From: Solobacterium moorei
GTDB lineage: Bacteria; Bacillota_I; Bacilli_A; Erysipelotrichales; Erysipelotrichaceae
Direction: 5' to 3'
Length of the DNA: 64,000 nt
Assembly (NCBI RefSeq): GCF_036323475.1
Contig: NZ_AP028934.1
Span: forward strand, 1,426,001-1,490,000
Shown: positions 31,954-60,753 of the stretch, piece after piece
Layout: each line of letters begins with the position of its first letter
How positions within the stretch are numbered: position 1 is the first letter of the stretch
Translations under genes and position numbers: made by a program
The notes under the pieces: model-generated
What the model saw: the letters and a program-made list of their open reading frames with translations, nothing else
Told to the model about the DNA's origin: nothing
Database searches by the model: none

Positions 31954-33780
31954 TTATTCAGCATCTTCGGCAGTATATGCCTGATATTTAATTCCACCAC
32001 CGTTATAGTAACGGCTAAACATCTCATAGTATTCCAAACGTAACGTCTGAATACCTACAATCAAACCTTCTAACGCCATAACGAAGATATTACCAAATAT
32101 TGCTACTGCAATACCTGCATTACCTGTCATCTTTACAAGCGTCATTACAACAAGCATCATGCCTGCATGGCTTAATACGAAACCACCAACACGCAGATAT
32201 GACATGGAGTTTGTTACAAAACTCAATAAGATTTCGAATGCTTCAAAGAAATTCATAACGAAGTAGTTACCCCAACCGCCTTCTGGTTTTAATGGGTGTC
32301 CTTCAAACTTTCTTTCAAAAGCTTCCTTCATCATAAATAAAATAATTGGAACAACGATAAATGGAATGATAAACATTGGTCTTAGTACATTCACCTTAGC
32401 TACAACCAGTAACACAGCAGCTACGATGATAAATCCATAGAATACAAATCCTGCAACACCATTCTGTGAGAACAAGAATTCAGCCCACTCTTTCTTACGA
32501 GCACGATTCCACATATTCATAATCATCGTTACTAAGATAAGTACTGCACCAATCGCAATCGCACCAATCAGAAGTACCATTGTACTTGATGAAGCCATAA
32601 CTTCAAATAATTTCTCTCTTACGCCAAATAAGGATTGGTGAATTGGATCTAATAGTGACTCATTTCCAAATACAGAGCCAAACAAGAAGCCAAAGATTGA
32701 TGATGTAATGCCAACTCTTCCAACGATACCAAATAACTTACCCTTCTTTTCAAATAAGAAGCCTAGAATCATAAGTACAAGCCCTTGTCCAAAATCACCG
32801 AACATGATGCCAAACAAGATACAGTAGGTAATTCCAATAAAGACTGTTGGATCGAAATCATCATATGCTGGCAAACCATACATCTCAATAAATAATTCAA
32901 ACGGTCTAAAGAACCAACTATTCTTTAATAGAGTTGGAAACTGGATATCTTTTACTTCACTTGGATCTTTGATTCTAAAGTCAACTGGTAATCCATTAAA
33001 GGCTGCTTTGTATGTCTCAACATCAGAAGCCTTTACAAATCCACTGAGGATTTGTTTTTGGTCTAACACCGCAACATATGGATACATATTGCAGATAGAA
33101 CCTTGACGTACACAATAGGAATACATATCAACCATCTTGATACGGCATTGTTCTACTCTTTCCTGAATATCAAACTTTGGAATTGTAATTGGTTCAAAAA
33201 ATAAACTCTGGAAAATCTTAAAAGTCTTAGCAGCGTAAGTATCACTCGTTACATACACGAGCCACACATATTGTGCTGTGGAATGTAAACGATGTAATAT
33301 AAACATCTCTTCACGATACAAAGATAACTTCTTAAAACTATCCATTGGTAATCTACCAAAACCAAAGTTTAAATAGTTACATGCATGCATCTTTTCAAAG
33401 TTTAATACACTTAATTCCTTCAAAGCCTTCTCATCATCAGGTGATAATGTTTCACTTTGTGCAACGGAATCCAAACCAAACTCTTCATTTAATTCTTTAA
33501 TATATGCTTCAATTTCAGCATTGGTATAACTAGATGTAATCTTTTCTTTTACATTCAAATCACATCCAACTGCATGCGCAATACTCTTAAATGTCTGTAT
33601 GTAATCCTGATATGGATTTTCTGTACTAATGACGCTTCCATTGTTATCATCATTGATAATTTTGGTTGCTATCACTGGCTGTAACAGACCTGTGTTCATC
33701 CCTGCCAGTAACATCTCATCCCGATGTTCTGGGTCTGTGCATGCACTGACGAACTTCATTTTTTCTATAGCCATGTGCAA
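31954..33780 (-). CDS. ntpI: V-type ATPase subunit I
   Basis: A 608-residue subunit equivalent to eukaryotic subunit a. The soluble N-terminal half (about 1-320) forms the collar. The C-terminal half has about seven or eight membrane helices (YCILFGIMFGDFGQGLVLMI, VFYGFIIVAAVLLVV) that form the ion half-channels, ending near MSYLRVGGFVLSHAGMM with the conserved Arg. It is 7 bp downstream of the subunit C gene. Confidence 0.95.
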   Translation of the reverse strand: MHMAIEKMKFVSACTDPEHRDEMLLAGMNTGLLQPVIATKIINDDNNGSVISTENPYQDYIQTFKSIAHAVGCDLNVKEKITSSYTNAEIEAYIKELNEEFGLDSVAQSETLSPDDEKALKELSVLNFEKMHACNYLNFGFGRLPMDSFKKLSLYREEMFILHRLHSTAQYVWLVYVTSDTYAAKTFKIFQSLFFEPITIPKFDIQERVEQCRIKMVDMYSYCVRQGSICNMYPYVAVLDQKQILSGFVKASDVETYKAAFNGLPVDFRIKDPSEVKDIQFPTLLKNSWFFRPFELFIEMYGLPAYDDFDPTVFIGITYCILFGIMFGDFGQGLVLMILGFLFEKKGKLFGIVGRVGITSSIFGFLFGSVFGNESLLDPIHQSLFGVREKLFEVMASSSTMVLLIGAIAIGAVLILVTMIMNMWNRARKKEWAEFLFSQNGVAGFVFYGFIIVAAVLLVVAKVNVLRPMFIIPFIVVPIILFMMKEAFERKFEGHPLKPEGGWGNYFVMNFFEAFEILLSFVTNSMSYLRVGGFVLSHAGMMLVVMTLVKMTGNAGIAVAIFGNIFVMALEGLIVGIQTLRLEYYEMFSRYYNGGGIKYQAYTAEDAE

Positions 33781-33787
33781 TCCTTTC

Positions 33788-34834
33788 TTAATAAATCAGC
33801 AGAGCTTTCACACGCTCTTGTGGAATTTGATATCTAACACTTTCGATAATATCTATAACATTTTGAATCTCAATATCTGCTAATAGTACATATGCTAATA
33901 GCGATAGATTCGGGTCAGTATCCGTACGAATGAAATGTGCACTCATATTGAACGTAATGCGTTGTGCATAATGTTCAATATAAAGAAATTTTTGATTCGA
34001 TAGATATGCTTTGTATCTCGATTTCTCTAAACGTGTAATCACTTGATCTGCAGTATCATTGTCAACCATGTCGTATAAATCCTTCATTCGGAAGAAGCAA
34101 CAATAGTCAGCCAACATCTGCTTAATGAATTCCTTGGAAACAGTAAAGTATTTCTTCAAACGATAAATAATCGCAATATTCTCCAACTCAATACGAGATA
34201 AGATAATTTCTTTCATCTTTTCCTTTGAAGTAGTATTAGAGTATTTCTCAATCGTTTCCAAGCACGTTGCATAGTATCTAGTTCGTAAGGAATGTTCCAA
34301 ATTGATAAAATCCATATCCTCTAAGGATTTTTGCTCATACTTCTTTAATACTTCATAATAAGAAGTATCTTTCAATAACGTCAATACATCTTGGAAAGAA
34401 GAACTATCAGCCAATTTCTCTAATGGAAATGAAGTATAGCTTCCGATATATAACGGTAATTTAGAAATCATATTTTGTCGCAACATTTCATTATCTTGGT
34501 CAGACAATGAATGTAACTTCATCAAAATTAATTCAATTTCAGTTTCCATGACCGCAATATGACCAAAATGTTTTGCGTTATCATCCGCATAGCGAATCAG
34601 CTTTGCAAACCGATTGAATACACCTGTACGAAGTAAAACCTCTAACTGTCCACGATGTATTGCCTTTGGATTAATTCCTTCCAAGGACTCTTTATAAAGA
34701 GGTTGTCCTTGCAAAAATACTGCAATATCACCAACCGTCTTTCTTTGCAACATCGTTGCGTAATCAACAGGTTTCAAATGTTCTGCAAGCATCGCTCTCG
34801 CCTTAGCGGTAATCGCATTACTTGATTTGCTCAT
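33788..34834 (-). CDS. ntpC: V-type ATPase subunit C
   Basis: A 348-residue subunit that links the rotor ring to the central stalk (equivalent to eukaryotic subunit d). It is all-helical with three similar segments and carries conserved patterns such as RLKKYF and the C-terminal LSLLAYVLLADIEIQNVIDIIESVRY. It starts 3 bp after the small stalk subunit gene. Placing C before I differs from the Enterococcus hirae order. Confidence 0.88.
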   Translation of the reverse strand: MSKSSNAITAKARAMLAEHLKPVDYATMLQRKTVGDIAVFLQGQPLYKESLEGINPKAIHRGQLEVLLRTGVFNRFAKLIRYADDNAKHFGHIAVMETEIELILMKLHSLSDQDNEMLRQNMISKLPLYIGSYTSFPLEKLADSSSFQDVLTLLKDTSYYEVLKKYEQKSLEDMDFINLEHSLRTRYYATCLETIEKYSNTTSKEKMKEIILSRIELENIAIIYRLKKYFTVSKEFIKQMLADYCCFFRMKDLYDMVDNDTADQVITRLEKSRYKAYLSNQKFLYIEHYAQRITFNMSAHFIRTDTDPNLSLLAYVLLADIEIQNVIDIIESVRYQIPQERVKALLIY

Positions 34835-34837
34835 TCG

Positions 34838-35170
34838 CTACTCCTGTTCTCTTCTTCCAACTGTATAATCCACAATCATCTGAATCCAGCGTTCCTTATT
34901 TGCATTAAACATATCAGTAATACGCTTTGATTCTTTCTCATACATCGCTTTTGCTTCTGCCTGTTTCTTCTCATGAGTTGTACGAATTTCTTCACGCATT
35001 GATTTAACCTGTGCCTCTACATTGGCCCAAGCATCATCCGTCAGTTTCTTTTTTTCCTGCTCAATTGCCTGCTTCAATTTGTACTTCAATTCATGGGCAT
35101 TATTAATCTTATTACGAGTTTCTTCATCCATCTTAATAAGATCTTGAATTACTTCTATTTTCATAGTCAC
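34838..35170 (-). CDS. V-type ATPase subunit G/H (peripheral stalk)
   Basis: 110 residues forming one long charged helix (ETRNKINNAHELKYKLKQAI, MREEIRTTHEKKQAEAKAMYEKE). It pairs with subunit E as the peripheral stalk. The sequence is low in complexity, so identification depends on its place as the first gene of the V-ATPase operon. Confidence 0.8.
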   Translation of the reverse strand: MTMKIEVIQDLIKMDEETRNKINNAHELKYKLKQAIEQEKKKLTDDAWANVEAQVKSMREEIRTTHEKKQAEAKAMYEKESKRITDMFNANKERWIQMIVDYTVGRREQE

Positions 35171-35322: not shown

Positions 35323-35799
35323 TCATTTTGATTCATTTGTAAGATGCTCAAATAATGCGATACAGCCTTCTTCAATTTCACGATATGCTGTATCGAAATC
35401 ACCACTATACCAAGGATCAGAGATGCTTTTACGAATACCTGTATATTCTAGTAGTAGATGTATCTTTCTTTCTGGATCATTATGATACATCCGTTGCAGA
35501 TTATGGATATTCATCTCATCCATTCCGATAAGTAAATCATAATACGCATAATCTTTTGCGGCAATTCGTCTTGCACGTTTCTCATCGCAATTCATACCAT
35601 GCTCACATAGTTTTTGTTTGGCAGCAGGATAAACAGGATTTCCCCTACCATTCCATATCTCTTCTGAACTTGTCGCAGCAGACGCAATCTCATACATATC
35701 ACCAACACTGGCATCATTCACTATCTTACGAAAGATATATTCCGCCATTGGCGAACGACAGATATTTCCATGACAAACAAATAATATCTTTATCGTCAT
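35323..35799 (-). CDS. Low-molecular-weight protein-tyrosine phosphatase
   Basis: 158 residues. The active-site loop VCHGNICRSP (Cys9, Arg15) is at the N-terminus, and the general acid lies in SDPWYSGDFD (about 125). It dephosphorylates protein tyrosine or related substrates in the cytoplasm. It is the last gene after the XRE/membrane-protein pair, 7 bp downstream, and may belong to the same transcript. No tyrosine kinase gene is in the window. Confidence 0.93.
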   Translation of the reverse strand: MTIKILFVCHGNICRSPMAEYIFRKIVNDASVGDMYEIASAATSSEEIWNGRGNPVYPAAKQKLCEHGMNCDEKRARRIAAKDYAYYDLLIGMDEMNIHNLQRMYHNDPERKIHLLLEYTGIRKSISDPWYSGDFDTAYREIEEGCIALFEHLTNESK

Positions 35800-36866: not shown

Positions 36867-37781
36867 CTATAAACCCAAACATAAAATTGGAATTGTAATC
36901 ACTGATAATGCTGTTGATACTAGAATTAGCTTTGCTGCAAACTTGGCATCACATCCATACTGCTCCGCAAGAATTGCTGCTGTAGATCCTGCTGGCATTC
37001 CGGTCATAATAACCGCAATAGCCTTAATCAATGTAGGAGCGTTCGCGAATGTTAATACAATAAACACAATGAAAGGATACGCAATTAAACGTATAGAACA
37101 GAAGAATAAGACTTTCTTATCTAATAGGTTATTCCACTCAATATCAGATAAGATTGATCCAACTACAAACATAGAGATTGCTGTAGTACACGACGCAATA
37201 CTGCTAATTGTTTTCTCAATAAATATTGGAAACTTGATACCAGTAAGCATAATTATAAATCCAATCAATACTGCAACTACAGATGGATTTCTAATCACAG
37301 ACTGCAATGCATGTTTGTGATCAATTGGTTTAAATAATGCTAAACCTATTGTCCACATCGTTACAATAATTGGAATTTGGAATACAGAGGCAAACATGAC
37401 TGCTTCACTACCATAGATACTTTGAATAATTGGAATACCAATAAATGCTGAATTAGAAACAATCATGCCATAGGTTAATACATTGGCATCCATCTTTTCA
37501 TATCTGTTAAAAAGGAATTTACTAGCAATGATAGATACTGTCTGAATAATTGCAGATATTACAACAGCCAATAAACAAGTCATTAATAAGTCTGAATTTA
37601 CAATTGAATCATTCATAAAAGACAGAATCACTGTACATGGCAAAACTACATTGATTAATAGCGCAGATAATCCTTTTCGAATTTCCGCTGTTACAATTTC
37701 CTTTTTACGCAAGAAAAAGCCGATACCTAGCATCAATACGATTTGCATCTGTAATTGTATCATCTGCGTAAATAATGACAT
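36867..37781 (-). CDS. AEC-family transporter (auxin efflux carrier fold)
   Basis: 304 residues with about ten membrane helices in two halves. The N-half shows LLINVVLPCTVILSF and SNSAFIGIPIIQSIYG, and the C-half MTGMPAGSTAAILAEQYG, all characteristic of the AEC family (MleP/YfdV type), which moves carboxylates such as malate. It lies 88 bp downstream of the yhf-type cluster on the same strand, with a strong terminator between, so it is probably a separate unit. Confidence 0.88.
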   Translation of the reverse strand: MSLFTQMIQLQMQIVLMLGIGFFLRKKEIVTAEIRKGLSALLINVVLPCTVILSFMNDSIVNSDLLMTCLLAVVISAIIQTVSIIASKFLFNRYEKMDANVLTYGMIVSNSAFIGIPIIQSIYGSEAVMFASVFQIPIIVTMWTIGLALFKPIDHKHALQSVIRNPSVVAVLIGFIIMLTGIKFPIFIEKTISSIASCTTAISMFVVGSILSDIEWNNLLDKKVLFFCSIRLIAYPFIVFIVLTFANAPTLIKAIAVIMTGMPAGSTAAILAEQYGCDAKFAAKLILVSTALSVITIPILCLGL

Positions 37782-37802
37782 AGTTCTACCTCATAAATAA
37801 TA

Positions 37803-37850
37803 AAATACCCTACTATTCTAATATAAAGACTATTAAATAGTAAGGTATTT
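37803..37850 (-). terminator. Terminator of the yhf-type operon
   Basis: AAATACC-TTACTATT and its complement form a 15-bp stem with one G-T pair and an 18-nt loop. On the minus strand the T-rich ATTTTATTATTT follows. It lies 20 bp after the yhfW-like stop and separates the cluster from the AEC gene. Confidence 0.85.
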
Positions 37851-37869
37851 AATTTAATCGGATAAAATC

Positions 37870-39090
37870 CTAGTTCTTTCCACCAATGAGTTCAATGAAG
37901 GACTCACCGTTTTGTGGTGCTTCTACATTAAAGTAATCACAACAGCTAGCACCCATGTCAGACATTGTTTTACGCGTACCTACTTGTACTCCTTCTAATC
38001 CTTTGCGATAGATTAGAAGTGGAACGCATTCTCTTGTATGTTTAGAATGTCCAATATTCGGATCATTGCCATGGTCTGCTTGGATAATCAAAATATCATT
38101 TTCAGTTAGATGGGGAAGAATCTTTGCTAGTCCTTCATCTGCTTGTTTCAATACTTCAACATATCGAGCTGCGTTTTGCGCATGTCCTGCCAAATCTGTC
38201 TCTTGTACATTTGTACAGATAAATCCTTGTTCCATTTCAAGAATAGCATTCAAAGTGATTTCCATAACTTCTGGTGTAGGAACACATGAAATGGACTTCC
38301 CTAAATCATTAGCGACAATATCTGCAACCTTTCCAATAAGCGTACATGGGATGTCACTCTTGGTTAGTATTGTAGGTGCTTGTACTTCTTTATCCACACC
38401 ATAACCTAGATGAAGACATTGATAACCTTGGTCGTACGACTTTGATTTAGCTGAAGCGATCCCAATGTACTTTCCTTCGCGAATCTCTTCAGCATTATAT
38501 AAATCCTGCATTGTATTACCAGTTCCACCGAACACAATTACACGACCTACCGTAGAAACTTCACGAACTAGCTTTGCAATTGCGTACTCTTTTTCAAATG
38601 GCATGTAATCGAGTGGTGCTGTTACGTTATAGCACATACCTAGATCTGCTTCTAAGTTATCCGCAACTGTAGCATAATCATCTACAACGACGTAACGAAG
38701 ACCATTTCGGTTCATAATTTCAACCTTGTGTCCTGCATCTTTAAGATGCTTCGCAACTTCATCTACTTTCTCTTGGAAAGGAACAAACTGTGGTTTCTTT
38801 GGTTTGGTTCCCATGATTTCTTGGTGTCCCATGAATGTATCTGCACCTTGATGCATTAACTCACTTCTACCAAAGTTTGCTTTAGGTTGAAACTTCATGC
38901 AATTACTTTCTCTCCCAAATGCATTCATCAATCCTAACTTTTCTAGTGTAGGTAGTTTTAAGTCTGGAAATTCATCAAGTATAGAAGCTAGTGTATTCGC
39001 CTTTTCATCACCTGCTCTAGCTTGCGCAGCATCATGCATCGCTCCAATCCCAAAACCATCTAAGACAATAATAATGAATCTCTTTTTCAT
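37870..39090 (-). CDS. yhfW: YhfW-like phosphopentomutase-family protein
   Basis: A 406-residue metalloenzyme of the alkaline phosphatase superfamily, close to phosphopentomutase. Metal ligands are visible in IVLDGFGIGAMHDA (Asp about 10), GADTFMGHQEIMG (the Thr/Ser phosphate carrier region, about 82), QADHGNDPNIGHSKHTRE (Asp/His cluster, about 337-354) and NVQETDLAGHAQN. Its substrate in the yhf context is unknown, probably a phosphorylated sugar or amino-sugar (inference). Its ATG overlaps the yhfX-like stop as ATGA. It is the last gene of the cluster. Confidence 0.88.
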   Translation of the reverse strand: MKKRFIIIVLDGFGIGAMHDAAQARAGDEKANTLASILDEFPDLKLPTLEKLGLMNAFGRESNCMKFQPKANFGRSELMHQGADTFMGHQEIMGTKPKKPQFVPFQEKVDEVAKHLKDAGHKVEIMNRNGLRYVVVDDYATVADNLEADLGMCYNVTAPLDYMPFEKEYAIAKLVREVSTVGRVIVFGGTGNTMQDLYNAEEIREGKYIGIASAKSKSYDQGYQCLHLGYGVDKEVQAPTILTKSDIPCTLIGKVADIVANDLGKSISCVPTPEVMEITLNAILEMEQGFICTNVQETDLAGHAQNAARYVEVLKQADEGLAKILPHLTENDILIIQADHGNDPNIGHSKHTRECVPLLIYRKGLEGVQVGTRKTMSDMGASCCDYFNVEAPQNGESFIELIGGKN

Positions 39091-40244
39091 TTCTTGCCTC
39101 CTAAACTATCATATACACCTACAATCTCAGGAGTTCCTGATTGAATTCCCTTAATTAGACACACATCACTACGTGTTACAAATATCTGATAACGAAAACA
39201 TAATATAGCACTATCACCGATATTATGTGGATTCTCCAATCCAAAATGATAATCAATGGAATCCATATCCGGAAGAATAACACTATCCTTTTCTAGTTCT
39301 TCATAAGAAGTACCAACCAATGCATTTTGAATATGACCACGTCTATAATATCCACCACCATAGATGTATGCATGATTATCTAATACGTGACTTACTTCCG
39401 AAAGATATAAAATACTTGGAATTTCCACTGTATCATGATTAATATGATACGGAGTCGTACCCGAAAGACCATGACCTGGTTCAGCAGATGTAATATCAGG
39501 ATATTGTTTCATCAGTTCTAATGTATGCACGCATGTGGCTGAAGGTGCGTTGACATTTTGAATATGACAACCTAGTGCTTCTAAAATCTTCTTTGCCTTT
39601 AGGACTGTATGTAGATTTTCTTGTGCTTTAATCTCTTTTGTTGCTTCATCATATAAAAAGCACGGAAAATTATCGACACCTGCAAGTTCAATATGTGTTA
39701 AGTCTTTTGACTTTTGTACAAGTTCTTTTAATTGGTTTAAATAAAAGCCTGCTGTCTGTCCACTATAAATTCGATCATTTTCACCAATGACACGTACACA
39801 GACCTTTTGAATCATACCCATCTTTTTAGCCGCTTCATTCACTTCAACTAATTTTTCATACGAATACACAGTGACATAGTCACAACCATACGCTACCAGC
39901 CGGTTTACCATCATTGATGGAATCTGTACCAAATGTCCTGCATGTGCAATGTGTAGTTGATTTTTCATCATCACTTCTGCTTCTTTAAAATCAACTACAA
40001 CTGCTCCTTTATAACCAATTTTTTCTAATTCCTTTGCTAAATATGGATTACGTCCAATTTGTTTTAGCATGTAATAAAGTTCGATATTTTGTTCATTTGC
40101 TTTTTGTAAAATCGCTTTTGCATTCTCTAAAAATTGATCAACATCCACAACATATGTATCAGGCATAATCTGTTCCTGTTGATGCATATGCACAGCTGTT
40201 TGAATAAGATTTGGATTTGTCTTACATAACTTATCTAGAAACAT
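39087..40244 (-). CDS. yhfX: YhfX-like PLP-dependent racemase-fold protein
   Basis: A 385-residue protein related to fold-type III PLP enzymes (alanine racemase N-terminal barrel). The cofactor Lys is likely in LYYMLKQIGRNPYLAKEL (about 62), where alanine racemases have YAVVKANAYG. AGVDNFPCFLYD and TSAEPGHGLSGTTP are specific to the YhfX group. The reaction is not established. It overlaps the end of the yhfS-like gene by 14 bp. Confidence 0.88.
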   Translation of the reverse strand: MFLDKLCKTNPNLIQTAVHMHQQEQIMPDTYVVDVDQFLENAKAILQKANEQNIELYYMLKQIGRNPYLAKELEKIGYKGAVVVDFKEAEVMMKNQLHIAHAGHLVQIPSMMVNRLVAYGCDYVTVYSYEKLVEVNEAAKKMGMIQKVCVRVIGENDRIYSGQTAGFYLNQLKELVQKSKDLTHIELAGVDNFPCFLYDEATKEIKAQENLHTVLKAKKILEALGCHIQNVNAPSATCVHTLELMKQYPDITSAEPGHGLSGTTPYHINHDTVEIPSILYLSEVSHVLDNHAYIYGGGYYRRGHIQNALVGTSYEELEKDSVILPDMDSIDYHFGLENPHNIGDSAILCFRYQIFVTRSDVCLIKGIQSGTPEIVGVYDSLGGKK

Positions 40245-41337
40245 CTTTCGCCTTTCTAATACTCTCTTTTAGAATACGTATAATCGTATCTGCTCCACTT
40301 CGATTTGGATTGATACGAATCATTCTTTCTTCTAGTGTTGGATCTGCTTTTCTAAATGTTCCGGATACACGATAAAACATAGGAACTGCTTCATATTTGG
40401 ATTCAGCACCAACCGGATTTGGTAATCCACCTAGCTTCTCTGCTTCATCTAATACTGCTTTTGCGATATCACCTTCAAATTCAACTAATAATACTTTTGA
40501 TTGTGCATTTGCTAAGAATGCTTCTTTTACACCTTCAACTTCATGATTGTTTAAACGTCTTACAAGCTCCTCATTTACTTCCGCTTGAATCGCTAGTGCT
40601 ACAGGTGCATAGGTAAAACCTCGTAACACTTCCATTGCTTGCCAACCCTGAACTTTCGAACCACCAGAGTAATTCATCTTTTCAATTGCATCTACTATAG
40701 ATGCTTTACCAACCACAACTCCAACTCCCTCTGGTCCTAATAGTTTAAAACAAGAGAAAGCAGATAAGTCAGCACCTAATTCAACACCAATTTTATGTAC
40801 CTTCATTACTGCATAATTATCATCTGTGATGATTTGAATATCTCTTATGGATTTGATTGTCTGAAGCACTTCTTCCATATCATAAGAATCATCAATCGCT
40901 TGACGTGTGTATTGAACAAGAGCAGTACGGATATTCTGATGTTCCTCTAGAACATGCTTGATATCTTCCAAATCGTTAAAGTTAGCCCTGACTGGAATTA
41001 ATCCCATAGATGAAAAACTAACTTCAGTAGTTGGATATATTGGAGAAGTATGTACTAAGATTTCTTCATTTGCAGAAGCCATGACTTGAAGCCCACTACG
41101 AATAGCACCTGTACCAGAACCAATTAATAACAGCGCCTTCTCAGCATGAAAGAAATTCGCAATGACTCTTTCAACCTTTTCAGCATATACTGGTTTATTT
41201 AAACCAGGTACTACACCAAAATCTCCGGCAGAAAGAAATTCCTTCCCTTGAAATTCTTTTGTGATCGCATCAATTAGTTGAAACTGTTTTTGTTTAGCTT
41301 CTTCTAAACTGATGGATTTTAAAGGATATGTGTTCAT
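40231..41337 (-). CDS. yhfS: YhfS-like PLP-dependent aminotransferase-fold protein
   Basis: A 368-residue protein with the fold-type I PLP layout: a cofactor-anchoring region (LIGSGTGAIRSGLQ, about 92), the Asp that holds the pyridine nitrogen (IITDDNYAVMKVH, about 178) and the Schiff-base Lys in LSAFSCFKLLGPEGVG (about 198). It most resembles Escherichia coli YhfS, whose physiological reaction is unassigned. It follows the php-like gene after a 50-bp gap that contains a hairpin. Confidence 0.88.
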   Translation of the reverse strand: MNTYPLKSISLEEAKQKQFQLIDAITKEFQGKEFLSAGDFGVVPGLNKPVYAEKVERVIANFFHAEKALLLIGSGTGAIRSGLQVMASANEEILVHTSPIYPTTEVSFSSMGLIPVRANFNDLEDIKHVLEEHQNIRTALVQYTRQAIDDSYDMEEVLQTIKSIRDIQIITDDNYAVMKVHKIGVELGADLSAFSCFKLLGPEGVGVVVGKASIVDAIEKMNYSGGSKVQGWQAMEVLRGFTYAPVALAIQAEVNEELVRRLNNHEVEGVKEAFLANAQSKVLLVEFEGDIAKAVLDEAEKLGGLPNPVGAESKYEAVPMFYRVSGTFRKADPTLEERMIRINPNRSGADTIIRILKESIRKAKDVSR

Positions 41338-41359
41338 GTAATACCTCCAGTTAAAATTA

Positions 41360-41380
41360 GGCTCAGAATATCTCTGAGCC
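41360..41380 (-). terminator. Intra-operon hairpin between php and yhfS
   Basis: GGCTCAGA and TCTGAGCC form a perfect 8-bp stem with a 5-nt loop, followed on the minus strand by TAATTTTAAC. The incomplete T-run suggests partial termination or an RNA processing or stability element that sets the ratio of upstream to downstream genes. Confidence 0.5.
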
Positions 41381-41387
41381 GTTTATT

Positions 41388-42296
41388 TTATTGAATATCA
41401 AAAATCCTACTTGGATTCTTTATCAATAGATGATCAATATCATCTTGACAAATACCGCGTTCTTTTAGAAGTGGTATAAACTTATCTAAAACAGCTGTAT
41501 ATCCGTTATATTCTCCAAAAGTCTTCATATATGATTTTCTAGAGATATCTGCTGAAAGAATAATATTGTTTACATAGCCTTCTTTGATAAGTTGTGCAAG
41601 ATTATCAGCTCTACTTTCGTCTTTTAGATACGACGTTTTTCCTATCGTATCAAAACCAATGTTTGCACCACGGTCCATTAATGATTTCATATATGCAATA
41701 TCATTAGAAAGATCAATGTGACCAAGTATAACCTTGTTAAGTGGCATAGCTTTCTCTGTAAAGATATCCAACTGTTGATGGCCTAAAGTTCCCATTTGGC
41801 AATGCGTAGAAACACAACATCCAACTTTCTTTCCAGCAATCGCAGCAGCAGCAAGAACCTTCTTTTCATCTTCGGTCATTACTTTACTTGTCGCAACTTC
41901 TCCGATTACGCCAGCTCTAATATTAGTGTCATCAATACCTACTGTTAAATCTTTAATGAATATTTCAGCAATATCATCCTCGCTCATTTCATGAATATAC
42001 TGTGGGTGATACTGTTCTAAATAGAAACCAGTTGGTGCAATAATATGAACATCACAAGCATTTGAAAGCTTAAGTAAATCATTCACATTTCTTCCCATAT
42101 CATTTGTGGACATTTCCACAAATGCTTGAACACCACACTCTTTTGCAAAGTTGATTTCATCAATTATCAATGGTGAATATCCAAATGTTGAATCAGGATC
42201 ATTACGAATTCTGCCAAGATCAACAGATAAGTGTTCATGACACATAGTGACTCCTAATTTACTAGGATCAATATAGCCTCTCACAGTACGAATCAT
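41388..42296 (-). CDS. php: Phosphotriesterase homology protein (Php/YhfV)
   Basis: A 302-residue TIM-barrel metal hydrolase of the phosphotriesterase family. Metal ligands are HxH in MCHEHLSVD (about 19-21), His in STHCQMGTLGH (about 163) and GHIDLSND (about 193), and the Asp in ILSADISRKSY (about 251). A conserved Glu takes the place of the bridging Lys (GVIGEVATSK, about 128). The natural substrate of Php proteins is unknown; related enzymes act on lactones and phosphodiesters. It lies 15 bp downstream of the yhfT-like gene. Confidence 0.9.
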   Translation of the reverse strand: MIRTVRGYIDPSKLGVTMCHEHLSVDLGRIRNDPDSTFGYSPLIIDEINFAKECGVQAFVEMSTNDMGRNVNDLLKLSNACDVHIIAPTGFYLEQYHPQYIHEMSEDDIAEIFIKDLTVGIDDTNIRAGVIGEVATSKVMTEDEKKVLAAAAIAGKKVGCCVSTHCQMGTLGHQQLDIFTEKAMPLNKVILGHIDLSNDIAYMKSLMDRGANIGFDTIGKTSYLKDESRADNLAQLIKEGYVNNIILSADISRKSYMKTFGEYNGYTAVLDKFIPLLKERGICQDDIDHLLIKNPSRIFDIQ

Positions 42297-42311
42297 AAAA
42301 CCCTCGCTTTT

Positions 42312-43619
42312 CTAACCAGCTAGTCCAATAAGCTGAACAAGATATAGTAAGTTTAAGATAATTCCACAAGCGATAGCAGCGATTGGACCAATAGCCATAC
42401 GCATTACTTTTCTACCTGTAGCTTCATTAATTAAGTAAATTGTTCCACCGATGAAGAATCCACCAGCTGCGCCAATCGTTGTAGCAGCACCCATAGATGC
42501 ACACGCTCCAATAGAACCGATTAATAATGCAAATTCAACAACTTGGTTCATTGATGAACGAATATTGTCAGAAGCATCACGGATTGATGGGAATCCACCT
42601 AAGAATTTACCTACAAATCCAAGTAACATTACTTCCGCAAAGATAATACCAGCACCAAGTACCACAGCAATAATTGGGTTAGGACTTAAGTATCCTGCAA
42701 CATATACGAATGTGAATCCTGCAACACCATATACACCTGTTGTAATCGCTGTTGTTGCAATTAATGGAATAAAGCTTAAACCACGCATCAATTCATTAGT
42801 AGCAGCTGTACGAACTAGATCCACATTGCCAGAAGCGTATGCTGTAGATAAATCAAACATAGATACTGTTGACCCTGCAAAAATATGTAAATTACAGATT
42901 AATGCAATCAACGCACCAGCAGCCATTAAAAATGGTAAATTTTTCTTAATTCTGCCTACTCTTTCACTAAAAATATTATTAGAATCATCTTCAGTTTCTT
43001 TATTTTTGTTGCTCAAGTCTTTAATGATGCATAATCCAATTAAGATAATAACACCAGTCATCATTGTCCATGCATCAGCACTAATTGTAGAGAACTTAGG
43101 ACCCAGAATTCTAATTACTAATACAACTAAAGCAGAAATTAACCCCTTCTTTGTACCAAATTGCATGAAGATTGCAACAATTGGGAAGATTGCAAATCCA
43201 GTAACTACATAAGTTCCTACTTGACCCATACCACCAATTAAGTCGATTGGTAATCCTGTAAGTACAGCATTAATAGCACTAATACCTGTCAAGCATAGTA
43301 AACCATATAGACCACCTAAAATTGGAGCCAACCATTTCTTAGGTGAAGCGATACCGATAATATCAGTCGCTAAGAATAATAACCATGGATTCATCAAGTT
43401 TGTTGCTAAAGCATTACCAATACCAACAGAAGCAATAAATCCTACACTTAAACCAAACGCAACAGAAGCAATCTCTGAACGCTTCATACGTTTCTCAAGA
43501 TACTCTGGGATAACAGGTCTAATTCCATCATGGAATACAGCCATACCCATGTGTGACATAAATGATGTAAGTGCACATAATGCAATTACAGATAAAGCAT
43601 TAATTAGATTAATTTCCAT
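42312..43619 (-). CDS. yhfT: YhfT-like membrane transporter
   Basis: A 435-residue integral membrane protein with about 11-12 hydrophobic helices and a charged cytoplasmic loop (KDLSNKNKETEDDSNN, about 200-215). HMGMAVFHDGIRPVIPEYLE near the N-terminus is characteristic of YhfT. It is presumably the substrate importer or exporter of the cluster. It lies between the yhfU-like and php-like genes with spacings of 14-15 bp. Confidence 0.88.
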   Translation of the reverse strand: MEINLINALSVIALCALTSFMSHMGMAVFHDGIRPVIPEYLEKRMKRSEIASVAFGLSVGFIASVGIGNALATNLMNPWLLFLATDIIGIASPKKWLAPILGGLYGLLCLTGISAINAVLTGLPIDLIGGMGQVGTYVVTGFAIFPIVAIFMQFGTKKGLISALVVLVIRILGPKFSTISADAWTMMTGVIILIGLCIIKDLSNKNKETEDDSNNIFSERVGRIKKNLPFLMAAGALIALICNLHIFAGSTVSMFDLSTAYASGNVDLVRTAATNELMRGLSFIPLIATTAITTGVYGVAGFTFVYVAGYLSPNPIIAVVLGAGIIFAEVMLLGFVGKFLGGFPSIRDASDNIRSSMNQVVEFALLIGSIGACASMGAATTIGAAGGFFIGGTIYLINEATGRKVMRMAIGPIAAIACGIILNLLYLVQLIGLAG

Positions 43620-43633
43620 AATAACTATCTCCC

Positions 43634-43993
43634 TTATTTATTTTTTAAAGCATCAATTAAAATTGGAACTGTATCGGTAATACTTGATATAGTCATACCA
43701 AAGCAGATCTTCCCATCATTAACTGCTTTGACAATTTCATCTTTATTTGGTCGTTGACCATTTTTACAAACAGTCGCACATTTACTATATCCAACTAAAC
43801 CAATCAGAATAGAAATTGCAGAACCTCCACCACTTTCACAGGCACCTAAATAATAATCAGCTTCACCTGATTTAAGTAGCTTTGATGCGTTTAAATCATT
43901 TGTAATAATTGTTTCAATTTGTGGATCAGCTTTTTTTACAGCTAATTCCATCTCATTCTTTTGCATTCCCCCAATAGCAATTTTCACTCCCAT
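43634..43993 (-). CDS. yhfU: YhfU-like DUF2620 protein
   Basis: A 119-residue soluble alpha/beta protein. It begins with a strand-glycine pattern (KIAIGGMQKNEMEL), has the glycine-rich CESGGGSAISILIGLVGYSKCATV (about 51-75) and ends in a helix (SITDTVPILIDALKN). It matches DUF2620, the YhfU family. The fold resembles small PTS or sensor domains, but no function is known. The ATG at 43993 has GATAGGTG upstream. It lies between the yhfY-like and yhfT-like genes. Confidence 0.85.
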   Translation of the reverse strand: MGVKIAIGGMQKNEMELAVKKADPQIETIITNDLNASKLLKSGEADYYLGACESGGGSAISILIGLVGYSKCATVCKNGQRPNKDEIVKAVNDGKICFGMTISSITDTVPILIDALKNK

Positions 43994-43996
43994 CAC

Positions 43997-44359
43997 CTAT
44001 CTTTCTAGCAAATTGCAAATATGGATTAATAATAAGATTTTTTCTCCTTCAGGAATTTCTACCTGAAATAAACCTTCTATTTCATCAAGTATTTTAGAAG
44101 CCTCAGCGAAGTTACCATTTTGCTTAATTTCGTCAACAATATTCTCATCGGCGCAAGCCTCACATTCACCTTTTTCAACACGTGATAATGCAATTGCTAA
44201 ATGAACACAAAACACATCCATCTTCTCTTGGCCAAAATCGTCAGAAATATCTAAAAATTTATCTACTACTAATTCCGACTTTTCTCTCACTGTTGATGAA
44301 ATGATATTAGCTTCATGCAAAATATCTAAACGTTCAATAATACTATTCTTATCAATCAT
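43997..44359 (-). CDS. yhfY: YhfY-like PRD-domain protein
   Basis: A 120-residue stand-alone PTS-regulation-type domain. The pattern of helices and the His in DVFCVHLAIALSRVEKGE (about 51) match PRDs, in which such histidines are phosphorylated by PTS proteins. A second His (LLLIHICNLLE) is near the C-terminus. There is no DNA-binding or RNA-binding domain. It is the first gene after the internal promoter and is followed immediately by the yhfU-like gene. Confidence 0.85.
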   Translation of the reverse strand: MIDKNSIIERLDILHEANIISSTVREKSELVVDKFLDISDDFGQEKMDVFCVHLAIALSRVEKGECEACADENIVDEIKQNGNFAEASKILDEIEGLFQVEIPEGEKILLLIHICNLLER

Positions 44360-44373
44360 ATCTTTCTCACTTT

Positions 44374-44383
44374 TTAATATTCA
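44374..44383. promoter_or_regulatory. Single operator-like half of the YhfZ site in the yhfY leader
   Basis: TTAATATTCA matches the palindrome TGAATATTCA found twice upstream of yhfZ at nine of ten positions. It lies about 15 bp before the yhfY-like start, downstream of the internal promoter, so the same regulator may control both units. Confidence 0.35.
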
Positions 44384-44405
44384 ATATTTTGTATTTTGTA
44401 AATTA

Positions 44406-44433
44406 ATAATAACATAATCAATATTACCGTCAA
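44406..44433 (-). promoter_or_regulatory. Internal promoter of the yhfY-W operon
   Basis: On the minus strand TTGACG (44428-44433) and TATTAT (44406-44411) are 16 bp apart, about 47 bp upstream of the yhfY-like start and just after the tyrosine phosphatase gene. Confidence 0.55.
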
Positions 44434-44446
44434 CAAATATTTAAAA

Positions 44447-45235
44447 TTATTCTAAAAATTGTTCTTTGATATAGCAGCAAAGATCCGTATCAACGCCATA
44501 TTCTTTTAAGAAGAATTCTTCATAGTTTGGGTATATATCTAAAATACCATCTATCATTTCCCTACCCATTTGTTCATCAACACCTGCTTCCATCATGATA
44601 TTTCGTTTAAGTGATGGATTCTTTTGAATTGCAGCTTTATTCTTTGCTAATGCCAATTCAATGCGTGCGTGATAAGCCCTATTTGATAGAAGATAGTCTT
44701 CTATGATATCTTCTTTTGGTACACCTAACAGTAAATATAACAAAACTGCAATTGCCCCTGTTCTATCTTTTCCTGTTGCGCAATGAAATAACAGTGGAAA
44801 TTCTATATTTTGTTTAATCATTTCAAGAATAAACATGAATCCTTCATTCTTAAACATCATATTCCTATATAGTTCTGCCATATGCTTATGTAGTGTTTCT
44901 TCGTCACTATCATCCGCAATGATCATCTTATGAATACCATATGGAGAAAAATCTACTCCCTCGCCATTACGATCACGCATACCGCTGACACGATAATTAA
45001 CAATTCCGTCGATGAGAGGATCTGGTTCTTCATACGCTTCATAAGAAGTACGTAAATCGAGTACTGTTTTGATACCCAGATTTTGAAGATGTTTTAACTC
45101 CTCTTTATTCATCCAGCCAAGAAAACAGCTGCGATATAATAATCCAGTCTTTACACTTTTTCCATCTACTGTAGAATACCCGCCAAGGTCTCTAAAATTA
45201 CAAATCTCACGGAAGTTGCTATCTAATATTCTCAT
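44447..45235 (-). CDS. Tyrosine-protein phosphatase-type protein in the yhf cluster
   Basis: 262 residues. The P-loop HCATGKDRTGAIA (Cys152, Arg158) and the N-terminal NFRDLGGYST are typical of the bacterial tyrosine/lipid phosphatase family (Y_phosphatase3, LipA/MptpB-like). LDLRTSYE and the C-terminal helices complete the domain. It could act on phosphotyrosine, phosphoinositides or a small phosphorylated metabolite. It lies 11 bp downstream of the yhfZ-like regulator on the same strand. No such gene is part of the Escherichia coli yhf operon, so it is an addition here. Confidence 0.88.
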   Translation of the reverse strand: MRILDSNFREICNFRDLGGYSTVDGKSVKTGLLYRSCFLGWMNKEELKHLQNLGIKTVLDLRTSYEAYEEPDPLIDGIVNYRVSGMRDRNGEGVDFSPYGIHKMIIADDSDEETLHKHMAELYRNMMFKNEGFMFILEMIKQNIEFPLLFHCATGKDRTGAIAVLLYLLLGVPKEDIIEDYLLSNRAYHARIELALAKNKAAIQKNPSLKRNIMMEAGVDEQMGREMIDGILDIYPNYEEFFLKEYGVDTDLCCYIKEQFLE

Positions 45236-45246
45236 GCATAATTTCC

Positions 45247-46173
45247 CTAATAACTTGGTGTTACAGTTCCATCTAACACTAAATCTTGAACTGCTAGTGT
45301 TTCTTTTACATCAAGCATCTGCCGTAATAACTCCGTCATCTCTGGTGTTTTACCATTTGTTACAATGACCGCATTTGTATCATCATTATCATCGATTGAA
45401 ACCTTCACGTAGTTTACTTTAGACATCTTATCGATAATTTCATCTTCATTCCATACTGCCGCATCAATTTCTCCATTTTGAACTAAACGCAATAAATTAT
45501 TTGATTCTACAGGGATGAATTCAACTTTCTTCATTCCGCATGCACGCTTTGTCATATCACTTTGATCAATCGAATCTCGATCAATCCCTACACGCATACC
45601 ATCTTGAATTTCTTTGGCATGAGGATCATGGAATACAATTACGTGTGATGAACAATATGTCCCTTCTCCAAATTCACATACAATATCAATTTGTCCCTTA
45701 TGTGCATCTAAGAATTCTTTTGCTGCATATTTTGAAACAACTGCGAAATTATAGCGATTCTCTAATACCATCGCAATTCGATTCTTCGCACCTCTCATAT
45801 AAGAAAGTGTCATTGGAATTCCATGTTTATTTTCCATTGTGGTAATAATGCCAGTCGCTAACCCCTCATACTTTCTAGAGTATGGTAAAGGCATAGCACC
45901 AACTAGTAAATTGATTCCAGCAAGTTCAAGTAGAATCTTGTCATTCTTTTCGATAACATAAGATCCTAAATGCCCCTTACTCACAATGTGAATTGCGTTA
46001 TTATTCTGTAGTGTTTTAATTGCAGATTGCGCAGTTCCTCTAGAAATATTCAATTTCTCACTTAGCTCTGTAACAGTTGGCGTGCGATCTCCTACTTTGT
46101 ATTTTAGAAGTGCTTTTGCTAGACTCAATACCGCAAGTCCGTTTTTACTCATTAGTTGATTATTATAGTTCAT
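45247..46173 (-). CDS. yhfZ: YhfZ-like transcriptional regulator
   Basis: 308 residues. The N-terminal winged helix-turn-helix (about 15-75, with TPTVTELSEKLNISRGTAQSAI) is GntR-like. The rest (about 85-300) resembles a type 2 periplasmic-binding-protein fold used as an effector-sensing domain (MTLSYMRGAKNRIAMVLENR, RLVQNGEIDAAVWNEDEI). It matches the YhfZ family. It starts with ATG at 46173 after AGGAG. Two perfect copies of a 10-bp palindrome lie just upstream, so it probably regulates its own operon. Confidence 0.88.
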   Translation of the reverse strand: MNYNNQLMSKNGLAVLSLAKALLKYKVGDRTPTVTELSEKLNISRGTAQSAIKTLQNNNAIHIVSKGHLGSYVIEKNDKILLELAGINLLVGAMPLPYSRKYEGLATGIITTMENKHGIPMTLSYMRGAKNRIAMVLENRYNFAVVSKYAAKEFLDAHKGQIDIVCEFGEGTYCSSHVIVFHDPHAKEIQDGMRVGIDRDSIDQSDMTKRACGMKKVEFIPVESNNLLRLVQNGEIDAAVWNEDEIIDKMSKVNYVKVSIDDNDDTNAVIVTNGKTPEMTELLRQMLDVKETLAVQDLVLDGTVTPSY

Positions 46174-46200: not shown

Positions 46201-46226
46201 TGAATATTCATTTATTTGAATATTCA
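46201..46226. promoter_or_regulatory. Tandem palindromic operator upstream of yhfZ
   Basis: TGAATATTCA occurs at 46201-46210 and 46217-46226, each a perfect 10-bp palindrome, with centres 16 bp apart. It lies 27 bp upstream of the yhfZ-like start in the divergent spacer. The arrangement suits binding of two dimers of a GntR-like regulator. Confidence 0.65.
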
Positions 46227-47261: not shown

Positions 47262-48778
47262 TTATAATAATGGTGCAAACAATTTCGTAAAGCCAACAAA
47301 CAATCTATGTAAAATACCATCCTTGATTTCACCCCTTTGAATCTGGTGTGATTTACTGAAGGTATCTAACATATCATCACGTATATCTAATACCTTCTTA
47401 GAACCATAGAGATATGTACCATTCTCAAAGTGTAAATATAGTGAACGATAATCAAGGTTGATTGTACCAACTGTTGCTACAATATCGTCACTTACAAATA
47501 CTTTTCCATGTATAAATCCTGGCGAATATTCATAGATTTTTACACCACCATCTATCAAATTCCGATAGAACGATCTTGTAATATTCCAAACCATCTTCTT
47601 ATCGGGGATGCCTGGTGTAATAATCCTGACATCAACACCGCGCTTTGCGGCTAAGATTAAAGCATTCTCTAATTCTGTATCGATAATCAGGTATGGTGTG
47701 CAAATATATACATAGTTATTGGCACGATTCAGTATATTCATATAGACATTCTGACCGGTATTTTCTCCATCAAATGGAGTTTCACCATATGGTGAAATAT
47801 AACCATCTGTATTTTCCATCTTGGCATCAACTTTGAAAACAGTATAATCATTATCTGTCTTACGAATCGCATTCCAATTCGCTAGAAAGAGTACAGTATA
47901 TGACCAAACAGCCTCCCCTTTAACACGAATGACATTATCTTTCCAATGACCAAATACCATCTTTTGATTAATGTATTCATCTGCTAAATTCATTCCACCA
48001 GAGAATGCTACTTTACCATCAATTACCATAATTTTACGATGATCACAATGATTCATAACTACGCCAAGAAATGGATTAATCTTGTTATAACGAACACACT
48101 TAATTCCTTCACTCTCTAGCATATTTGCGTAATTTGGTGGAAGAGAATGAATGGTTCCCATATCATCATACATAACACGTACATCTAAGCCTTGTGCCAC
48201 TTTCTCTTTTAGAATAGTATGCATGCATTCCCAAAGTTTACCCTTCTCAATTGTAAAGTACTCTAAGAAGATAAGCTCTCTGCCTTCTTCATTTCCTCTA
48301 ACATAACAGGATAGCCAAGGTCACCTAAAGCATAGTAATCAAAATTTGAATTACGATAGATTGGATATCCTTCTGTCTTAGATAAGTAATAAAAATCTCC
48401 CTTCATATGTGGTGCAATTTCTTCCATCTCCTCCAAAACTATTTCATCTTGCACAAAATATTTCTTAGACTCAACTGTATTCTTAATAAGCTCCAAAAAA
48501 GTTTTTGAGGTAATTAAATTTGCACCCAACAGCAAGAATAATGCGGTACCTGGAATCGGGAATAAAATAATCAATAAAACCCACAACATGTCTGCCGATA
48601 GATGCCGTGAATTATTAATAATATACATAACAAGTAATATACTAAATAAACGAAGTGCCATTTCAATCCATACAAAATGTTCCGTAAAGAATAAAAATAG
48701 ATTACGTACAATTATAACTTCTACGATTAAACCTATCGCTATAATTCCAAACCGAAATATTTTCTCAAAAAAATTCAT
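47262..48778 (-). pseudogene. cls: Cardiolipin synthase, frameshifted
   Basis: A phospholipase-D-family cardiolipin synthase read in two frames. The first frame (48778 to 48263) gives the two N-terminal membrane helices and the start of the catalytic part, ending at EEMKKAESLSS. The second resumes with LIFLEYFTIEKGKLWEC and holds both HKD motifs (HRKIMVIDG and HGKVFVSDD). One missing base near 48270 restores a single frame of about 505 residues, the normal size. The start at 48778 has AAGGAG upstream. The first frame lacks the active site, and the second lacks the membrane anchor and may start at the ATG at 48224. A sequencing error is the alternative to a real mutation. Confidence 0.85.
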
Positions 48779-48972
48779 AGTTGGTCTCCTTACTAGTAAT
48801 GTTAATGTATCACTTTTAAAAATCATTGGCCAATCAATTCAAATTTAGTCAAAGTAAAAAATATATAAACTGGTTCAACAACACAAATAATTTACTTTTT
48901 TCAGTTGAAAAGGTTGTAAAAAAGCCAATATTAAGAGAAAATTATATGCGGAAATTGAAAGGAGTTAATACC

Positions 48973-49530
48973 ATGATTCAATCAACAGAAATTAAACCAG
49001 GTCAGTGCTTCGTTTGGGAAGGTGATTTATATCAAGCAATCACAGTTGACCGTAATAAGACAGCTATGGCTAAGATGAAGGTCGCTGTTAAAGTAAAGAA
49101 CCCAAGAACAGGTGTTGTAAAGGAACTCAGCTTAATTGGTTCTGACCGTGTCGAAGAAGCTTTCATCGATAAGAGAGAAATGCAGTATCTCTATAACGAT
49201 GGTGCAAACTTAATCTTCATGGATACAGAAACATATGAACAGATTGAAATTCCAGCAAGCCGCTTAGAGTGGGAAAAGAACTTCCTAAAGGAATCTTCTA
49301 TGGTAAACATTCAGGTTTACAACGGAGAAATCTTAGGTGTTCAATTACCAGATAAGGTAAATCTACAGGTTACAGAGTGTGAAGTTGCAGTTAAAGGTAA
49401 CACTGCGACATCCGCTACTAAAAATGCTACTGTAGAAACTGGTTTAAATGTTCGTGTACCATTATTCATCAACGAAGGAGAAGTAATCGAAATCTCTACA
49501 GCTGATGGTAAGTATTCTGGACGTGCTTAA
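48973..49530 (+). CDS. efp: Elongation factor P, variant tip loop
   Basis: A 185-residue ribosome-binding factor that relieves stalling at polyproline stretches. Three beta-barrel domains are evident: KOW-like (about 1-65), OB (about 66-125, with MQYLYNDGANLIFMDTETYEQ) and a C-terminal OB (about 130-185, ending ETGLNVRVPLFINEGEVIEI and DGKYSGRA). The loop that normally reads KPGKG, with modified Lys32, reads KTAMA here, so residue 32 is Met. The frame is open upstream to 48826, but ATG 48973 with AAAGGAG upstream begins the conserved domain. Confidence 0.92.
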   Translation: MIQSTEIKPGQCFVWEGDLYQAITVDRNKTAMAKMKVAVKVKNPRTGVVKELSLIGSDRVEEAFIDKREMQYLYNDGANLIFMDTETYEQIEIPASRLEWEKNFLKESSMVNIQVYNGEILGVQLPDKVNLQVTECEVAVKGNTATSATKNATVETGLNVRVPLFINEGEVIEISTADGKYSGRA

Positions 49531-60534: not shown

Positions 60535-60747
60535 TATAAAAGCGTCCCTTTCCAAGGACGCTTTGTGCGCGGTACCACCTTAGTTCATGATTTCTCATGC
60601 GCTCTTTCCATAACGTGGAATACGTTTATCCCTACTCAGTTCAGGATACCTTCTCCAGAGTGTCAATCCTGTAAGAATCCGCCAATGCTTGCACCATACC
60701 ATTGTCGCTCTATCGTCTTCTAACAAGAACTCTCTTTCTTCGAATTT
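60535..60747 (-). promoter_or_regulatory. T-box riboswitch of hisS-aspS
   Basis: On the minus strand the antiterminator core AAGGTGGTACCGCGC (60567-60581) precedes a strong terminator, AGCGTCC with GGACGCT and a T-run (60536-60563). Upstream, AGAGT and ACTCT close a Stem I-like structure. The bases next to the 3' strand read GACAC (60660-60664), which contains GAC (Asp) and, shifted, CAC (His). The fourth base of the tRNA-binding TGGN is T, which can pair with the G73 of tRNA-Asp but not with the C73 of tRNA-His. Uncharged tRNA would favour read-through into hisS-aspS. Confidence 0.92.
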
Positions 60748-60753
60748 AGTAGT

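Follow-up and report, generated by a model that had tools for sequence, protein, structure and literature searches.

A yhf-type gene cluster of Solobacterium moorei as a putative two-module catabolic operon with an exchanged entry module

The yhf operon is present in the best-studied bacterium, Escherichia coli, and to our knowledge is still without an assigned pathway. The purpose of such a cluster is the question raised by a yhf-type locus of Solobacterium moorei, located at positions 37870-46173 of the window, i.e., the whole 64,000-nucleotide stretch analysed here (contig NZ_AP028934.1, positions 1,426,001 to 1,490,000, forward strand). A preliminary description of this DNA had also considered the pathway to be unassigned, which fits the open-access literature: among titles and abstract openings (subscription papers lay outside the search), none dealt with the function of the yhf genes or of DUF2620. 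At least two of YhfT, YhfU, YhfW, YhfZ and YhfY are mentioned together in two papers. A Lactobacillus rhamnosus paper holds a table that includes DUF2620 and YhfX family genes. Comparison of related clusters offers a handle on the purpose of the cluster, as the presumed uptake-and-first-cut genes have been swapped as one block while the downstream enzymes stayed fixed. This exchange pattern alone, with no experiment, divides the genes into entry and core sets, and predicts which proteins set the substrate. We propose, with a probability of roughly 55%, that the locus is a two-module catabolic operon: a conjugate of the amide or lactone type would be imported and then opened by Php, alone or together with an amidase, and the product would be processed by two pyridoxal phosphate (PLP) enzymes and an altered phosphopentomutase.

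Nine open reading frames (ORFs) occupy the locus on the minus strand, as had been described, and are transcribed from 46173 to 37870 in the order YhfZ, phosphatase, YhfY, YhfU, YhfT, Php, YhfS, YhfX and YhfW. Pfam and NCBIfam models place each of the eight yhf-type products in the family claimed for it. The regulator gene yhfZ (45247-46173) encodes a GntR/HTH_41 protein with a YhfZ_C domain (PF14502, PF14503 and NF041241 above their cut-offs, the last with 378.9 bits against 260), and is followed by a PF13350 tyrosine-phosphatase-family gene (44447-45235; 174.7 bits against a cut-off of 22.2) whose product carries a CATGKDRTG loop. The entry genes are yhfY (43997-44359), which encodes a single PRD domain (PF00874); yhfU (43634-43996), a DUF2620 protein (PF10941) with a predicted RpiB/LacAB-like fold; yhfT (42312-43619), a multi-helix membrane protein and presumed transporter (PF10797) with about 13 hydrophobic segments; and php (41388-42296), a metal hydrolase of the phosphotriesterase family (PF02126). 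The core comprises yhfS (40231-41337), a type I PLP enzyme (PF22475, YhfS-like_C); yhfX (39087-40244), a type III PLP enzyme with the alanine-racemase family fold (PF01168/PF21279, YhfX-like_C); and yhfW (37870-39090), a phosphopentomutase-like protein with an altered sugar-binding motif (NF009049, 584.2 bits against a cut-off of 254). By ORF coordinates, yhfS and yhfX overlap by 14 bp, the largest overlap that had been claimed, and yhfX and yhfW by 4 bp. The run is unbroken as regards strand, but it contains inner gaps of 87 bp (phosphatase/yhfY) and 50 bp (php/yhfS). From these families, it is reasonable to infer that the cluster processes a phosphorylated amino-containing compound.

The division into two modules shows in the comparison with a second genome of the genus (locus L097). 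Protein identities between the two clusters are 80% for YhfZ, 69% for the phosphatase, 79% for YhfS, 71% for YhfX and 84% for YhfW; those of the entry proteins YhfY, YhfU, YhfT and Php are 39, 38, 37 and 37%. In blastn comparisons, only two blocks align, 46226-44487 (72%) and 41349-37864 (75%), and DNA homology breaks at the end of the phosphatase gene and in the php/yhfS gap. The segment between them (41350-44486, minus strand), which comprises the gap before yhfY, then yhfY as its first gene, yhfU, yhfT and php, has no blastn homology to L097 at E 1e-5. The L097 cluster has an additional amidase gene. The flanking genes match L097 on both sides (main hits 64-81% on the 33001-35170 side and 77-88% on the 47262-49530 side), and the two clusters therefore sit at one chromosomal site. 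As for relatives elsewhere, the window's YhfU, YhfT and Php share 67, 73 and 54% identity with their counterparts in Clostridium sp. Marseille-P3244 (L002), and YhfU and YhfT of L097 share 71 and 69% with the proteins of L023, which belongs to a different genus in the window's family. It is not claimed that the entry module was transferred recently from Clostridia, as the window and L002 share 64-66% blastn identity in each module and G+C content is even.

To place this pair in context, 23 clusters were compared: the window, L002-L005, L020-L032, E. coli (L034), two from a plasmid collection (L051 and L052) and, from the same genus, L097 and L098+L099; L029 and L098/L099 are interrupted by contig ends, L033 (YhfT alone) stands outside the set, and Gammaproteobacteria are represented only by E. 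coli K-12 and plasmid-collection records. YhfU, YhfT, Php, YhfX and YhfW are present in all 23, YhfY in 22, and YhfZ and YhfS in 21 each. On trees built without short partial proteins, the YhfT tree joins the window with L002-L004 (100/100) and L097 with L023/L024 (100/99); the window and L097 stand together on the YhfW (100/99), YhfS (100/100) and YhfZ (100/100) trees. Approximately unbiased (AU) tests reject a window+L097 clade on the YhfT data (p 4.5e-4) and a window+L002-L004 clade on the YhfW data (p 1.1e-5), values that should not be taken at face value because the groups were picked after identities and trees were known and because the YhfT tree carries a long-branch warning between types. 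When clusters are assigned to entry types A, B and C (from the YhfT tree, and by judgement for L029 and L051, whose YhfT branches are not firmly placed), the type changes twice on the YhfU and Php trees, three times on the YhfY tree and twice, by construction, on the YhfT tree; none of 300 shuffles was as low (means 9.4-9.7). The corresponding numbers are 5 for YhfS, 5 for YhfX, 6 for YhfZ and 7 for YhfW, against shuffle means of 8.2, 8.7, 9.4 and 9.4, and the observed numbers were reached by 2, 1, 1 and 9 of 300 shuffles, respectively. Few type changes on the YhfU, Php and YhfY trees and more on those of YhfS, YhfX, YhfZ and YhfW indicate that YhfY, YhfU, YhfT and Php travel jointly. YhfZ, YhfS, YhfX and YhfW have thus been paired repeatedly with different versions of this entry module.

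Within the entry module, YhfU yields a confident AlphaFold2 model, which was built from five sequences and has a predicted local distance difference test score (pLDDT) of 91. Foldseek returns four matches at E ≤0.001, all of them RpiB chains (best 4.1e-4), the next being a response regulator at 1.1e-3; in VIA-align, 22 entries whose titles name RpiB or a related sugar isomerase score Z 13.7 to 9.3, followed by 7.5, while EIIB chains of the phosphotransferase system (PTS) score 7.2-7.3 amid unrelated rows. At the level of profiles, the best PDB match is the RpiB-like 2ppw, with a non-significant E of 0.088. Against a profile of 12 RpiB sequences (12 of 20 loci, chosen by a CGTG-like motif), YhfU gives an E of 0.0011 at 19.9% probability with the cysteines aligned, and unrelated pairs give at least 0.13. 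Cys53, which aligns with the cysteine of the RpiB CGTG motif, is invariant in 23 of 23 YhfU proteins. YhfU is predicted, in short, to have an RpiB-like fold with an invariant loop cysteine, which, if true, would be the first structural identity for DUF2620 and the EF_0830 family.

YhfY retains His53 in 22 of 22 proteins and His113 in 19 of 22. Profile comparison relates YhfY to EF_0829 and YhfU to EF_0830, two proteins of DgaE-type clusters (hhalign E 4e-7 for YhfY against the EF_0829 PRD family and 7.3e-6 for YhfU against EF_0830/SFCGS); other pairs give at least 0.13, except the generic PLP pair YhfS/DgaE at 4.2e-6, and both proteins score below the NCBIfam cut-offs of the EF_0829 and EF_0830 families. 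The neighbours of EF_0829/EF_0830 are DUF4312, DUF4311, DUF4310, an amidohydrolase and DgaE, plus an aldolase in two of three annotated stretches. In Salmonella, D-glucosaminate enters via the PTS DgaABCD before the same type of enzyme acts (PMC9529869). Because of this entry route, the PRD/SFCGS/DUF431x set would appear to occupy the position at which a carrier is expected. One may go further and suppose that a so far undescribed class of carriers exists, with YhfY-YhfU-YhfT as one branch and PRD-SFCGS-DUF4312/4311/4310 as the other; in it, an RpiB-derived protein with its invariant loop cysteine would take the EIIB role, uptake would be coupled to the phosphorelay by a lone PRD protein, and carrier and first hydrolase would be traded between genomes as a substrate-specificity cassette; we regard this extension as speculative and rather improbable.

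Six residues of Php, which we take to be its metal ligands, are retained in 22-23 of 23 proteins, and the presumed PLP lysines are retained in YhfS (K198, 21 of 21) and YhfX (K61, 23 of 23). Structures of the E. coli proteins have been solved, namely 1bf6/4lef for Php, 4j8l for YhfS and 4kbx for YhfX. An enzyme with the amidase signature (three rows searched matched PF01425, and there are matches to distant amidase models as well) accompanies 11 of 12 type B clusters, three of four type C clusters (the fourth being interrupted by contig ends) and none of the seven type A clusters; its conserved Lys and Ser occur in 14 of 14 sequences. In mammals, PTER, a phosphotriesterase-related enzyme, cleaves N-acetyltaurine (PMC11374699). 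Together with the link to the amidase, this points to an amide substrate. N-acetyl-beta-alanine is reportedly the topic of a 2026 paper (PMC13311154).

Building on the gene families, the modular exchange, the predicted YhfU fold and the kinship of YhfY and YhfU computed here, a working model of the operon can be outlined. The entry module (YhfY, YhfU, YhfT and Php, joined in other lineages by the amidase-signature enzyme) would perform the uptake of a small conjugate and its first hydrolytic cut. YhfT would serve as the membrane carrier, YhfU as its soluble partner or as an entry enzyme, and the PRD protein YhfY might couple the module to the cell's phosphotransferase status. Php, alone or aided by the amidase, would open an amide or lactone bond ahead of the PLP steps. 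In the core module (YhfS, YhfX and YhfW), the freed amino compound would pass through two PLP steps, and YhfW may move a phosphate on the sugar-like part of the compound. YhfZ would sense the inducer and act via TGAAYRTTCA palindromes, and the phosphatase beside yhfZ would be a lineage-specific accessory.

The mosaic could in principle have arisen by hidden paralogy, with two ancestral clusters and differential loss, rather than by module exchange. The types are old enough for this, given that the YhfT proteins of types B and C are 32-38% identical to that of the window; however, the DNA breakpoints are sharp and lie inside one cluster at one site, with both flanking blocks 72-75% identical between the two genomes, the core trees show 5-7 changes of entry type, and each of the three same-genus genomes possessing any YhfT has a single gene. 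We consider this history very unlikely. YhfU, for its part, could be a working RpiB-like sugar-phosphate isomerase with the cysteine as base, acting with YhfW in a pathway that yields a pentose- or hexose-type phosphate and having no transporter partner. The fold match to RpiB/LacAB, far above all other entries, the alignment of the invariant Cys53 and the retention of phosphomutase residues in YhfW speak for such an activity. RpiB enzymes also use an Asp-His pair after strand 1 in catalysis and C-terminal arginines in phosphate binding, and the YhfU/RpiB sequence alignment contains no counterpart of either; PF02502 (RpiB/LacAB) is absent from the Pfam matches of YhfU at E 0.001, which comprise DUF2620 only; and YhfU travels with YhfT and Php rather than with YhfW. 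Because the other RpiB catalytic residues are absent from the alignment, we do not file YhfU as an isomerase, and the isomerase reading seems doubtful.

YhfW keeps Asp11, Thr/Ser85 (Thr in 17, Ser in 5), His303, Asp339, His340 and His351 in 22 of 22 proteins, residues with metal-binding and catalytic roles, and two arginines are also kept. The SAD motif of DeoB contacts ribose. It reads S-A-D in all nine deoB rows (nine of ten loci used) and is replaced by D-L/V-G in all 22 YhfW proteins, and YhfW reaches 151.1 bits against the DeoB model TIGR01696, far under its cut-off of 341.2; YhfW is probably a phosphomutase for a sugar other than that of DeoB. That it nevertheless stands in for DeoB, which would make the cluster one of nucleoside or pentose salvage, might be suggested by the window's genome, where canonical deoB was not found and both matches are pieces of yhfW. 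Apart from the motif and the score, a further point against this comes from 12 other genomes of the genus that were searched: 8 gave no match to deoB and all 8 are without YhfT, so the lack of deoB is common in the genus without the cluster; nucleoside salvage is hardly probable. As to the phosphatase, its location between yhfZ and yhfY is as had been reported, but its presentation as the novelty of the pathway is weakly supported. The protein has both marks of its family, a PF13350 match above the cut-off and the CxxGKDRTG loop, and its PDB relatives are 8dhi and 1ywf. The proposed check of its co-occurrence shows it to be rare, in 3 of 23 clusters (the window, L097 and Breznakia, L005), yet the L097 copy, 69% identical, lies at the same place. 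Could it be an integral enzyme that dephosphorylates substrate or product? Its identical position in two same-genus genomes with differing entry modules would fit, as would the apparently separate recruitment of a same-family phosphatase to the Breznakia cluster. Against this, it was not found in 20 of 23 clusters (two of them interrupted by contig ends), PF13350 genes are multiple (three in the window's genome, six in Breznakia), and a possible separate promoter lies downstream of the phosphatase gene. An integral role is therefore unlikely in our view. The Breznakia copy lies after php, unlike that of the window, and scores 134 bits to another phosphatase of its own genome against 79.7 bits to the window's; the best match of the window's phosphatase, among rows compared before L097 was added, is likewise another phosphatase of its own genome (160 bits). 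Because the Breznakia copy lies elsewhere in its cluster and appears non-orthologous, the phosphatase looks like a lineage-specific accessory adjoining yhfZ that was apparently recruited twice. This, together with its rarity, weakens its candidacy as the key novelty; that it was gained more than once hints mildly at a link to the pathway but does not make it a defining part.

Several results weigh against the two-module operon or one of its parts. Apart from the long-branch warning on the YhfT tree, entry types are less scattered on the YhfS, YhfX and YhfZ trees than in shuffles (5-6 changes against 8.2-9.4), meaning that modules have been exchanged often but not freely. A search of the Breznakia genome and of the Vibrio halioticoli plasmid record found no YhfS; the protein is therefore not obligatory, and the core may have alternatives. 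As for transport, the structure model of YhfT has low confidence (mean pLDDT 43), and no link was found between YhfT and the DUF4310/4311 profiles (best E 0.2-0.33). The E. faecalis DgaE-type cluster also carries a PTS IIC gene, and by eye other membrane proteins of the L053 and L054 clusters look carrier-like; in these clusters, the carrier need not be the PRD/SFCGS/DUF431x set. Enzymes of the phosphotriesterase family also cut lactones and phosphoesters, and the exact operator pair described below occurs in only 2 of 21 loci with yhfZ. The YhfT profile gave no match to PDB sequences at E up to 10. A reading of YhfT as a DUF4311-DUF4310 fusion is not supported at the E values above, although at a loose setting the halves are collinear in type A, residues 15-184 aligning with DUF4311 and 199-432 with DUF4310.

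Candidate regulatory signals lie at both ends of the cluster and at the module boundaries. The perfect palindrome TGAATATTCA occurs twice at 46201-46226, with 16 bp from one start to the next, and a TATAAT box follows directly downstream; the two copies, which are its sole exact ones within the window, and the box might represent the YhfZ operator and the yhfZ promoter. L097 has a matching pair, TGAATGTTCA and TGAACATTCA, with identical spacing. A general operator for all yhf clusters was not found, by the 2-of-21 count, some ORF starts at these loci possibly being placed too early. The 87-bp gap between the phosphatase gene and yhfY holds, by consensus match only, two features on the minus strand: a possible second promoter (TTGACG-16-TATTAT, 44433-44406) and, with one mismatch, a site resembling the operator (44374-44383). 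In the php/yhfS gap, i.e., at the module junction, lies a terminator-like hairpin with a T-rich tail (41360-41380, minus strand; z -3.5 for 41340-41395). Overall, the promoter scan shows no enrichment (38 sites against 42.3 in shuffles, sd 6.5) and the terminator scan gave 5 against 3.5 (sd 1.9), so that individual sites are no more than suggestive. The strong terminator reported at the end of the run was not established, because the G+C-based scan did not list it; a long A+T-rich hairpin is predicted after yhfW (37799-37854, minus strand; -25.6 kcal/mol and z -3.9 for 37770-37870) and may act as a terminator.

The distribution of the cluster is patchy, as YhfT scores above the cut-off in few genomes per sample: 15 of 395 in the class sample and 3 of 70 in the genus (the window's own genome counted in both), and 1 of 391 in the clostridial sample, this one being the centre genome itself. 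A 392-genome phylum sample overlaps the class sample and gives no independent count. A highly divergent lone YhfT (L033, 10359-11642) has nucleosidase-like and thioesterase-like ORFs nearby, by eye, and no other yhf genes in its stretch. All four type C clusters encode a small protein between yhfZ and yhfY (L030 11406-11795, L031 8571-9002, L032 11195-11566 and L098 2227-2574), with hydrophobic segments and, by eye, a zinc-ribbon-like start; one representative searched gave no Pfam family above cut-off. Directly after yhfW, two clusters of one family have a glucosamine-6-phosphate isomerase family gene (L026 1793-2515, PF01182; L027 17391-18113, alike by eye).

Around the locus itself, a low-molecular-weight phosphotyrosine phosphatase gene (PF01451; window 35323-35799, L097 13551-14012; 70% identical) lies on opposite sides of the two clusters, and V-ATPase-type genes (window 33788-34834, PF01992; 64% identical in L097) lie on the same side in both, which indicates one site with local rearrangement. 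At 47262-48826, two adjoining ORFs (320 and 187 aa) match a single 422-aa ORF of L097, which suggests that the gene is split in the window. Further away, a T-box leader is found at 60551-60749 on the minus strand (93.7 bits against a gathering score of 93).

Among known systems, a close parallel is the yhf operon of E. coli K-12, to which the locus had been matched. The match holds for gene content, all eight protein families being present, but not for gene order, which is Z Y X W php U T S in E. coli; order varies among the other clusters too and is not a strict criterion of the family. The window cluster also differs by its extra phosphatase and by an entry module nearer to clostridial ones, with YhfT 73% identical to that of L002 versus 49% to that of E. 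coli. With the RpiB/LacAB isomerases, YhfU shares the predicted fold and the position of the loop cysteine, but it is shorter, and the other catalytic and phosphate-binding residues were not seen in its alignment. Php resembles mammalian PTER in being a phosphotriesterase-related metal hydrolase, a likeness at the level of family. The EF_0829-EF_0839/DgaE-type clusters comprise PRD, SFCGS, DUF4312, DUF4311, DUF4310, amidohydrolase, DgaE and, in some, KDGP aldolase; unlike them, the window cluster has no aldolase, and no counterpart of YhfX or YhfW appears in the DgaE-type stretches seen. In both, however, relatives of YhfY and YhfU are followed by a membrane protein, a hydrolase and a PLP enzyme.

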